Origin: a virus
Strand: one strand, 5' to 3'
DNA: 21,090 nt
Virus record (IMG/VR): IMGVR_UViG_3300009551_000130
Location: 1-21,090 of that record
Shown: positions 16,047 through 19,902 of the stretch, in pieces
Position numbering within the stretch: position 1 is the first letter of the stretch
Layout: the number at the start of each line of letters is the position of its first letter
The notes under the pieces: generated by a model
Seen by the model: the letters and a program-made list of their open reading frames with translations, nothing else
What the model was told of the DNA's origin: nothing
Databases searched by the model: none
Program-made: the position numbers and the translations under genes

Positions 16047-16613
16047 TCATGCGGACCGCTTCCGGCGAATGACCAGCGTCTTGTCCGGCATCCGGCGAAT
16101 GACGTTGCGGGCAATCGCGATGTCGATCCAGCGCTGTGGAACGTTTCCGATTTCGTCTGATGTAGGCAGCGCCGCTATCCACGCTTCGAAATCGCGCTGA
16201 TCGTTATCAGAGGGCGAAGGCAGTGCAGTGTAGCGGTTCGCTTGGCGCCTCATCGCGACGCGCTCCTCTGCCTCAGCCATGATGGCAGGCACGATTTTCG
16301 CTGGATGGTCTGCCTTGCGCATAGCGGCCTGGGCGGCGTCGCACAGGATATCTGGCGGAAGATGCCCGATAGCCATGTATGCGGCGTCGAACCACGTATC
16401 GCGGTCTTCGAGGCTCATGCCGACCGGTGCGCACAGATGCAGGCACGGGGTAACTGCTTGGATGAATTCAGGCAGCGAAGCAGGTCTGAGATCAGCCGGC
16501 AAATTGGGAGTTGTGGCGGGCAAGGAATCGTTGCGCTGCGTCAACTGTTGTTCCGTGGCCGCTGGCACTAGCCCCCCGATGTCCTGCCACGCTGTTGGTT
16601 CGCCGTTGTCCAT
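16047..16613 (-). CDS. Probable helicase-loader-type replication protein
   Basis: From ATG 16613 the product is 188 aa. The first 50 residues are polar and disordered-looking (MDNGEPTAWQDIGGLVPAAT). From about residue 48 an ordered helical domain follows: P-E-F-I-Q-A-V-T-P-C-L-H-L-C-A-P-V-G-M-S, then D-R-D-T-W-F-D-A-A-Y-M-A-I-G-H-L-P and L-C-D-A-A-Q-A-A-M-R-K-A-D-H-P-A-K-I-V-P. The C-terminus is very basic (R-R-M-P-D-K-T-L-V-I-R-R-K-R-S-A). A gene of this size after a DnaT-like replication gene is commonly a loader for the host DnaB helicase, in the way lambda P follows O. The start lies 122 bases inside the upstream gene; the ordered domain begins before the upstream stop, so the overlap seems real. 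No P-loop is seen. Confidence 0.55.
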   Translation of the reverse strand: MDNGEPTAWQDIGGLVPAATEQQLTQRNDSLPATTPNLPADLRPASLPEFIQAVTPCLHLCAPVGMSLEDRDTWFDAAYMAIGHLPPDILCDAAQAAMRKADHPAKIVPAIMAEAEERVAMRRQANRYTALPSPSDNDQRDFEAWIAALPTSDEIGNVPQRWIDIAIARNVIRRMPDKTLVIRRKRSA

Positions 16614-17115
16614 TTTGGTATCCGTCTTCAGGTTTGTTGATCGATCCCCAGCCCTTCGCTGCGGCGTGTTCGACCAGACGGCCGGGCGGCCAGTCCGCAT
16701 CGGTCAGGTTTTCGAGATCGCGCAGAACCCCGGCGTAGGCGGTTTCGCTGTTCGCCAGCTTCTTGCGGCGACGGTTGCCCATGAAGTCCCGCCAGTGGTC
16801 GGGATTAACCCCTTCCGGGCATGGCCAAGCGGCGCTTCGCGTGCGCGTCTCGTGTGTGTGTACGAGCGGGGTGGGATTAATTTTTGGGGTCTGGGGGCTT
16901 TTATCAAGGGAGGGGAGACGGTCACGTTCGTCACGTTCCGTCACGTCCTGTCCCGTGATGTCACGTGACCGAGCCTTGCGTTCACGCTCATTCTTGCGGC
17001 GCTCAGCTAGGATGGTCCGCTCTGCTTCGGCTTTACCAAGCTCCATCGCCACCTCCGCCACCAAGGCGGCAGGCGTGCCCGCTTCGATCAGACGTGCGAG
17101 CAGGTCGGCGCTCAC
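16492..17115 (-). CDS. Replication protein with DnaT-like C-terminal domain
   Basis: The product is 207 aa. Residues 1-50 are helical and charged (MSADLLARLIEAGTPAALVA, then R-R-K-N-E-R-E-R-K-A-R). A Pro/Thr linker follows, roughly 50-95. Residues about 98-155 carry a domain I associate with DnaT-like phage replication proteins: H-W-R-D-F-M-G-N-R-R-R-K-K-L-A-N-S-E-T-A-Y, then L-R-D-L-E-N-L-T-D-A-D-W-P-P-G-R-L-V-E-H-A-A-A-K-G-W. DnaT-type domains help load the replicative helicase on DNA. The GTG start overlaps the upstream stop (GTGA), with GGAGGCTC ahead. The linker coding DNA contains iteron-like repeats, which recalls lambda O, whose gene contains the origin. The extreme C-terminus (TVDAAQRFLARHNSQ) overlaps the next gene. 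Confidence 0.65.
   Translation of the reverse strand: MSADLLARLIEAGTPAALVAEVAMELGKAEAERTILAERRKNERERKARSRDITGQDVTERDERDRLPSLDKSPQTPKINPTPLVHTHETRTRSAAWPCPEGVNPDHWRDFMGNRRRKKLANSETAYAGVLRDLENLTDADWPPGRLVEHAAAKGWGSINKPEDGYQNGQRRTNSVAGHRGASASGHGTTVDAAQRFLARHNSQFAG
16850..16970. repeat. Iteron-like cluster with A+T-rich flank: candidate phage replication origin
   Basis: Within the linker of the replication gene, GTCACGT occurs at 16921, 16930, 16940 and 16960, with GTCCCGT at 16950. The spacings are 9, 10, 10 and 10 bases, so the copies face one side of the helix. The last copy is part of a perfect 10-bp palindrome, GTCACGTGAC (16960-16969). Beside the repeats lie A+T-rich ATTAATTTTT (16876-16885) and CTTTTATC (16898-16905) in a G-rich strand, plus a short GT run (16852-16861). 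This is the arrangement of an iteron-type origin with an unwinding element, placed inside the initiator gene as in lambda O. The encoded peptide there is an unstructured charged linker, so the DNA rather than the protein may be under constraint. Function is inferred. Confidence 0.5.
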
Positions 17116-18890: not shown

Positions 18891-19369
18891 GCGAGTGCCT
18901 CCATTGCCTTTGAACCAAGCTTTATGACTGAGCGGCAGGTGTGCAGTGGGGCAGCCACGCCAAACACGACTTGCGTGGGCGTCTCGGCGAACACCGCCTC
19001 TGGACGAATGGTAACCAGCCGGAACCCGAGCGCGTCCAAACGCCTAAGTTCAGACGGCGAAAACCAGTCCTTTAACTGTGCGATCGACCTGAAAGCGCAA
19101 CCAGAGTGAAGCGCTGGGTCGACCAAGTTATGAGCCTCGAAAAAGCCCATCCCCAATTCATTCCACCAAGCGGGTGGATGGCGTGGGTTGGTTTTGTCAC
19201 GCCAGCGCGCGGAAAATCCGGGGCGGTATGGTCCCCTGCCCTCGGCATCCTGCACACGGAACAGCAATTCCGGGACGTCGACGCAAAGACCGGCGGGGTG
19301 TTGGAAAGGGGGTGGGGACACCCCGCCGGGAGTTTCCGCCGGTGCTGCCGGGCTGCCGTTATGGGTCAT
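18887..19369 (-). CDS. Unrecognised early protein (160 aa), phage-type
   Basis: After a Pro-rich N-terminus (1-28) a folded domain begins: P-E-L-L-F-R-V-Q-D-A-E-G-R-G-P-Y-R-P-G-F-S-A-R-W. Later segments are G-C-A-F-R-S-I-A-Q-L-K-D-W-F-S-P-S-E-L-R-R-L-D-A-L-G-F-R-L-V and V-F-A-E-T-P-T-Q-V-V-F. I recall proteins of this form in phage early regions (L-Y-R-V-x-D-x-x-G-R-G-P...R-P-G-F/M-S..W), without known function. The order of an L-F-R strand, a central F-R-S strand-helix and a late E-x-x-x-Q-V-V-F strand superficially resembles ADP-ribosyltransferase folds, which is speculation. Coupled to both neighbours by ATGA and GTGA overlaps. Confidence 0.65.
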   Translation of the reverse strand: MTHNGSPAAPAETPGGVSPPPFQHPAGLCVDVPELLFRVQDAEGRGPYRPGFSARWRDKTNPRHPPAWWNELGMGFFEAHNLVDPALHSGCAFRSIAQLKDWFSPSELRRLDALGFRLVTIRPEAVFAETPTQVVFGVAAPLHTCRSVIKLGSKAMEALA

Positions 19370-19902
19370 GCGATTGCAGCCAGGGCGGCAGCGACAGGAA
19401 CAATCAGATGAGGTTGCTCAGTTGTCGGACCGTAGCCGCGCATCATCGCGTCGGTGACGTGGCCTTTCGTGGCAGCGCCAAGTTCCTTCTCTCGCCCCGC
19501 AAGAGAAGGCAAAAGGTCCCCGAAAATGCAGCGAACCAAGTCACCAGCCGTGTTATTGGCGGGTTCTCGCCCGTTCAGATATTCACGGATGCGCGGCTTG
19601 ATGACTGCATTGATGTAAGCTTGATCGACGGCGACTTGCTTCACAAGCCTGCCGGCGTCCGCTTCACCGCGCAGATAATCAGCAAGTGCTTCCGTTGGGC
19701 GAAACCACTCCCCCTGCACCTTGTCAGCGGCGAACCTCTGCTTGATTTCGTATTCGACATCAGACCCAATCAACGCGACGATGCGAAGCGGCCAAGGCAG
19801 GCCAGTGCGCAGTGTGGCGAAGCGGGATTTGACGTTTTTGGTGCGGCCGAATTTGACCAATGCATCAGGCCCGTCCATCTGGAACACGTAGGTGATGCTC
19901 AT
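19366..19902 (-). CDS. GIY-YIG (T5orf172/MUG113-type) nuclease-domain protein
   Basis: The product is 178 aa. The N-terminal 80 residues follow the T5orf172/MUG113 branch of GIY-YIG nucleases: Y-V-F at 5-7 (GIY strand), V-K-F-G-R-T at 16-21 (YIG), S-R-F-A-T-L-R-T with the conserved Arg27, then D-V-E-Y-E-I-K-Q-R-F with Glu50/Glu52 and G-E-W-F at 64-67. The residues needed for a metal-dependent nuclease are thus present. The C-terminal 95 residues are helical and charged, perhaps giving target choice. It is the second gene after the early promoter. It may cut host DNA, aid recombination, or act as a homing-type enzyme; the sequence does not decide. GGAGGC precedes the ATG, which overlaps the cro-like stop (ATGA). 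Confidence 0.75.
   Translation of the reverse strand: MSITYVFQMDGPDALVKFGRTKNVKSRFATLRTGLPWPLRIVALIGSDVEYEIKQRFAADKVQGEWFRPTEALADYLRGEADAGRLVKQVAVDQAYINAVIKPRIREYLNGREPANNTAGDLVRCIFGDLLPSLAGREKELGAATKGHVTDAMMRGYGPTTEQPHLIVPVAAALAAIA

Follow-up and report, generated by a model that had tools for sequence, protein, structure and literature searches.

Phage replication origins beyond a few model systems have seldom been located. The window analyzed here, an IMG/VR virus record of 21,090 bases that is probably a fragment, carries a cluster of short repeats inside a replication-type gene. The locus raises the question of whether these repeats belong to an origin of replication and which protein reads them. 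The gene set of the window is that of a temperate, P22-like phage, with a portal protein (PF16510), a terminase, a major head protein and a CI-like repressor. A gene with a MUG113/T5orf172 (GIY-YIG-like) domain is located at 19366–19902, near the repressor. The right-hand part of the window has no DNA-level match among annotated phage records. The phage host is probably a sphingomonad, a bacterium of soil and water, because the bacterial genomes in which relatives were found by an N-terminal peptide scan belong in every case to Sphingomonas or Novosphingobium. As argued below, region 16868–16969 is very probably a theta origin that lies inside its own initiator gene in the style of lambda, with the N-terminus of the initiator predicted to bind the iterons (Table 1).

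Table 1. Features of the putative origin region, with positions in the window
Feature	Position	Strand	Basis
Downstream overlapping gene (188 aa) in a P-like position, putative partner of the helicase-loader type	16047–16613	−	Homologues; helical model
Initiator gene, 207 aa, GTG start, holds the putative origin	16492–17115	−	Matches to phrog_678 and phrog_6451
G-depleted tract (gene strand C/A/T, + strand G-rich), putative unwinding/loading region	16868–16918		Codon test; skew rank; four-C runs
A+T-rich block ATTAATTTTT within the tract	16876–16885		Sequence; AATTAA-type block also in relatives
Core GGGGTCTGGGG (gene strand, CCCCAGACCCC), read in three codon frames among relatives	16886–16896		Frame comparison
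TTTATCAAG (gene strand, CTTGATAAA), conserved within one branch of the relatives	16900–16908		Pattern scan
Iteron array: GTCACGT ×4, GTCCCGT ×1, palindrome GTCACGTGAC at the end	16921–16969		Sequence; codon resampling
Basic stretch RRKNERERKARSR, residues 39–51, putative repeat reader	16963–17001	−	End of long helix; covariation
N-terminal two-helix part, residues 3–50: short helix and 35-residue helix	16966–17109	−	AlphaFold2 (helices 3–12 and 16–50)
Upstream gene, isolated DnaA domain IV-like helix-turn-helix, 84 aa	17112–17327	−	PF08299, E = 5.7e-10, above cutoff

The initiator and its relatives

Residues 56–174 of the initiator match the family phrog_678, annotated as 'replication initiation O-like' (E = 5.7e-8), and the protein also matches phrog_6451, annotated as 'primosomal protein' (E = 3.4e-5). 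The phrog_678 match is restricted to the C-terminal part of that family (positions 164–295 of 346), and the window protein shares the O-like C-terminal domain of the lambda O family by this match. A Pfam search at E ≤ 1 returned no family for the window protein, neither the N-terminal DNA-binding domain of O (Phage_rep_O) nor the DnaT family PF17948. Relatives carry a range of C-termini. The O-like domain is matched by L077 (E = 2.6e-13), and PF17948 is found below threshold in L006, L017, L021 and L050 (16–17.5 bits versus a cutoff of 25). The C-terminal part of L050 is homologous to that of proteins annotated as mycobacteriophage initiators, of RepA-like type (39% identity over 84 aa). DnaA domain I (DnaA_N, PF11638) scores above cutoff at the C-terminus of L066 (5001–5969) and L079 (5001–6017), which suggests direct recruitment of the helicase in a DnaA-type manner. 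By these matches, the C-terminal part is O-like or DnaT-like; it is exchanged between relatives.

In the AlphaFold2 model of the initiator, the two N-terminal helices are followed by a low-confidence segment (pLDDT < 50 at residues 54–67), and the chain is unstructured until approximately residue 104. A Foldseek search against the PDB yielded nothing usable for the initiator or the downstream protein and matched no solved fold, and a BFVD structure search returned weak matches to phage replication proteins. In one relative (L082:5001–5474), an HNH endonuclease domain (PF01844, 47.8 bits) lies between the N-terminal helix and the C-rich linker, which may reflect a homing-type insertion into this gene; the contig terminates shortly past this domain.

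Approximately 60 related phage genes with short repeats at the same place were gathered in several ways. A protein search provided six relatives of 34–100% identity, among which L004, L006 and L007 have differing repeats and a flank with CTTGATAAA, CCCCAGACCCC and AATTAAT recurs. A DNA-pattern scan of viral contigs returned 42 stretches, of which roughly half represent distinct homologous genes. Alignment A2 proved too diverse for scanning a collection, and a set of closer sequences took its place. Chance pattern matches in A+T-rich contigs or unrelated genes (L013, L016, L018, L034, L044, L045 and similar) were excluded, and additional pattern scans enlarged the set. Specificity was checked on genomes from the order (298) and the class (385) to which the Sphingomonas genome G013 belongs; none of them matched the first, combined pattern. 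An independent scan with N-terminal peptides only produced 6 bacterial and 28 viral loci. Among 20 distinct loci from that scan, 13 have the core CCCCA(G/A/C)ACCCC and four have a second C-rich tract type; two of the others are truncated where the contig stops, and L079 has neither tract type.

The repeats exceed what the protein sequence requires

The repeats were found where the original prediction had placed them. Exact copies of GTCACGT start at 16921, 16930, 16940 and 16960, and the copy at 16950 (GTCCCGT) has one mismatch. Their spacing (9, 10, 10 and 10 bp) agrees with the predicted 9–10 bp, and the last copy extends to the palindrome at 16960–16969. The placement of the array in codons for a disordered linker is likewise borne out by the AlphaFold2 model. 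The whole-window count of GTCACGT is unremarkable at six (2.3 expected; reached in 6 of 100 shuffles), and five of the six are clustered within 49 bp.

Repetitiveness was measured as the number of bases covered by exact repeats of at least 7 nt within 78 nt of the tract. When the window protein was held fixed and its codons were resampled according to phage usage, exact repeats covered 40 of 78 nt compared with 9.3 expected (P = 0.003, a single value to be read in the knowledge that this statistic was picked after an earlier one had been seen). The earlier statistic, which scored the commonest 7-mer with one mismatch over fixed codons 37–78, was mostly non-significant because arginine and proline codons alone produce many near-repeats. 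Agreement across 42 genes and the three-frame evidence described below are independent of the choice of statistic. Over the 42 relatives, exact repeats of at least 7 nt cover a mean of 37.4 of the 78 nt before the tract, compared with 9.6 for resampled codons, and 6.3 nt elsewhere in the same genes. The excess over the synonymous-codon expectation reached P < 0.05 in 37 of the 42 relatives tested. By this measure, the window and its relatives carry in-gene repeats beyond codon expectation, at a place that corresponds to the initiator-binding repeats of a lambda-type origin.

The spacing between neighboring sites peaks at 10 bp (44 of 154; 81 of 154 at 9–11 bp), and multiples of three are not preferred. 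The copies therefore lie on one face of the helix and do not keep a common codon phase. It is extremely improbable that the repeats are the mere footprint of a low-complexity protein linker rich in R, D and T. The linker is disordered and its peptide looks repetitive (RD, VT), but far fewer repeats result when the same protein is resampled synonymously, the copies in the window fall out of codon phase, and the adjoining core is conserved across three frames.

Loss of the repeats from relatives that retain the protein would have spoken against the original prediction. Instead, nearly every relative has repeats in the corresponding position, and their sequence varies with the N-terminus, as would be expected of an initiator and the sites it binds. 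Of 19 matches to GTCACGTGA in 12 relatives, 18 fall within the array region of this gene. Not every genome has its densest repeats at the array.

A G-depleted tract with a core conserved as DNA

The array was originally described as adjoining two A+T-rich blocks. Both blocks are present, but they are weak, and the flank is unusual instead for its G-free strand. The best 40-nt stretch there is 55% A+T, a value reached by 2.8% of such stretches, and the A+T excess over codon expectation is not significant (P = 0.11; P < 0.01 in 13 of 40 relatives). Depletion of G on the gene strand is modest in the window (P = 0.014). Across 40 genes, codon usage predicts 424 G residues on the gene strand in the 54 nt that follow the repeats, but 179 are present, with P < 0.01 in 33 of the 40. 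CCG accounts for 6% of proline codons in the tract versus 44% in other genes.

The 11-base core CCCCA(G/A/C)ACCCC occurs in all three reading frames, encoding PQTP-, SPRP- and PPDP-type peptides in 16, 13 and 8 genes, respectively. Judging from this comparison, the tract core is conserved as DNA, because its occurrence in three frames cannot come from protein constraint. Ordinary hairpins would be impossible on either strand of the melted tract. The G-rich strand could fold into a G-quadruplex: 35 of 50 tracts are of the four-C-run type versus 16 expected from codons, a count that is confounded with G depletion.

A second tract type, CCCAATGAAAATAATTCTAACCCC, is equally conserved and replaces the CCCCAGACCCC core in L051, L060, L071, L093 and L096–L107, among others. 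Just past the G-free tract of the window, CTCGTGTGTGTGTACGAG at 16849–16866 is a short inverted repeat whose loop consists of GT repeats, and some relatives have a hairpin-like sequence after the tract.

GC skew changes near the element in most records

GC skew had been proposed as a check on the origin, and in most of 13 records it turns near the element, which supports the origin indirectly. The coding-strand GC3 skew of same-strand genes is higher downstream than upstream of the element in 10 of the 13 (Wilcoxon P = 0.0017), based on crude gene calls and on records some of which may be fragments. In seven of the 13, cumulative GC skew reaches its minimum no more than 2.6 kb from the element (P = 0.00025 versus random placement). 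The GC3 test fails in three (G006, G010 and G012), and the cumulative minimum is far from the element in G006 and G009. The clustered palindromic sites resemble in outline a partition site or another parS-like nucleoprotein site that is not an origin. The probability of such a site is very low, as the array is situated within a replication-type gene, the skew changes here, and no ParA/ParB-like pair was found among the early genes scanned.

The repeats covary with the initiator N-terminus

Among 37 dereplicated genes, repeat similarity correlates with that of the protein segment whose codons precede the array (r = 0.58; P = 0.0002 in a partial Mantel test), versus r = −0.003 for the C-terminus and r = 0.06 for the downstream gene. 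The C-terminus and the downstream gene correlate with each other (r = 0.39). The same pattern is visible in individual pairs: L006 and L024 have a common N-terminus and common repeats with unrelated C-termini, and L006 and L007 have a common C-terminus with different N-termini and repeats.

The basic stretch at the end of the long helix is proposed to be the repeat reader. Similar basic stretches on different helices share repeats, as observed for L014, L096 and L099 and for L040, L054 and L073 with GCGTCAC/GTGACGC, and for L027 and L051 with GTAACGC. This assignment remains a proposal because the 16 basic residues perform no better than the rest of the N-terminus (partial correlation in 51 genes, 0.41 for the basic residues and 0.41 for the preceding helix). 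Co-inheritance of adjacent DNA could partly contribute to the correlation between the N-terminus and the repeats, since the putative reader and its sites are neighbors.

Covariation of sites with the N-terminus would also be expected of an autorepressor, for which the array would be an operator that represses the protein's own gene, with replication starting elsewhere. This explanation is unlikely. The array is positioned mid-gene with no evident promoter role, repression would leave the conserved G-free tract and the skew change unexplained, and the C-terminus belongs to replication families.

With less than even confidence, we suggest that the N-terminus may represent a new phage origin-recognition domain, in which a long helix would dimerize and end in a basic region that reads DNA somewhat in the manner of eukaryotic bZIP proteins, the reader and its adjacent sites would swap together, and the G-free tract would form the joint. 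The window site GTCACGTGAC contains CACGTG. If this suggestion is true, a single recombination event would exchange the reader together with its sites, since the basic region is encoded beside them, and the conserved tract would join the N-terminus to interchangeable helicase-recruiting domains. The relatives would then constitute a natural library of approximately ten origin specificities: GTCACGTGAC, GCGTCAC/GTGACGC, AGCGTAACG, GGTAACGC, GTCGTACGAC, TTCCACCGGAA, TGTCCATGGAC, TGTCCACGGACA, GCGTCAG and GTGACGTAACG.

Neighboring genes and a working model

Homologues of the downstream gene occur at 34 of 45 loci and usually begin within the initiator gene. The product of the window gene has an all-helical model and no family or PDB match in profile and structure searches. 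From its position and the helical model, the gene may be the counterpart of lambda P.

The upstream DnaA domain IV-like protein was one of two proteins whose footprint had been proposed as a check. It has the DNA-binding fold of DnaA by family match and is encoded just upstream, so that an origin whose repeats are recognized by this neighbor, or by host DnaA, could be envisaged. Such recognition is very unlikely: a homologue is found near only 14 of 45 relatives, at varied positions, and in L003 the repeats are identical to those of the window but the DnaA domain IV-like protein is clearly different. The repeats are also unlike TTATCCACA and change with the initiator N-terminus. Inspection of 16840–16980 by eye revealed no TTATCCACA-like DnaA box, the array being of the GTCACGT type. 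The upstream protein might instead tune host DnaA sites.

The original prediction of a candidate origin within the replication gene is thus supported by the repeats, the tract, the covariation and the O/DnaT-like C-terminus. At the level of sequence, repeats, a G-free tract, DNA-level core conservation, N-terminal covariation and C-terminal swapping are in place, and we infer from there how binding, melting and helicase loading might proceed and what the downstream gene might do. The initiator N-terminal helix, with the basic stretch at its end, would bind the iterons at 10-bp intervals. Several bound copies would strain the DNA and open the adjoining G-free tract, in which hairpins would not readily form on either strand. 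The O/DnaT-like domain at the C-terminus and the downstream gene product would then bring in the host helicase.

Implications

Three points of this putative origin are new: a non-lambda N-terminus composed of a helix and a basic region, the G-free tract, and the natural mix-and-match of specificity and helicase-recruiting parts. Together, the features supply a rule by which origins might be pinpointed across a whole phage group, namely out-of-frame short repeats followed by a G-free tract within an O/DnaT-like gene, the tract holding CCCCA(G/A/C)ACCCC or CCCAATGAAAATAATTCTAACCCC. With so many natural combinations of basic region and repeat, recognition rules can be put to a direct test. How initiators are assembled can be seen from the independent exchange of their specificity and helicase-recruiting parts. 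Pairs of origin and initiator that differ in specificity might be used in sphingomonads as mutually compatible replicons.

Comparison with known systems

No paper describing this origin type was found in the literature searched, which excluded most subscription journals. Like the origins of iteron plasmids (RepA, RepE and TrfA type), the putative origin has tandem initiator sites beside an unwinding element. Plasmid iterons are approximately 17–22 bp long and usually lie outside the rep gene, whereas the window repeats are approximately 7–10 bp, one helical turn apart and inside the gene. The C-termini of some relatives resemble DnaT (PF17948, sub-threshold) or DnaA domain I (DnaA_N, in two), but in the relatives these are just C-terminal modules on the same kind of N-terminus and origin.

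The mycobacteriophage RepA-like initiators (Brujita, Fishburne and others) share C-terminal homology with the relative L050. For prophages with RepA, an origin upstream of or within repA has been suggested (PMC7157519). Unlike the window protein, the phage RepA proteins of that study are described with an N-terminal helix-turn-helix, and its authors found no repeats (PMC7157519).

The middle of O in lambda and Stx phages contains iterons together with an A+T-rich tract, and P comes next (PMC7466680). The analogy to lambda O drawn in the original prediction holds for this layout: the window likewise has putative initiator-binding iterons and a putative unwinding-type tract mid-gene, followed by a second, putative replication gene that overlaps the 3′ end, and the C-terminus of its initiator matches the 'O-like' PHROG. 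The window differs from lambda in the sequence and spacing of the iterons, in a flank that is G-free rather than simply A+T-rich, and in the many different iteron types within one family. Its N-terminal ~50 residues are helical with a basic end and match no Pfam family, unlike those of lambda O, and its downstream gene, unlike P, could not be related to any known family. On the basis of these sequence comparisons, the window is classified as a putative lambda-type in-gene origin by its mode of working, with an initiator from outside the lambda O protein family.
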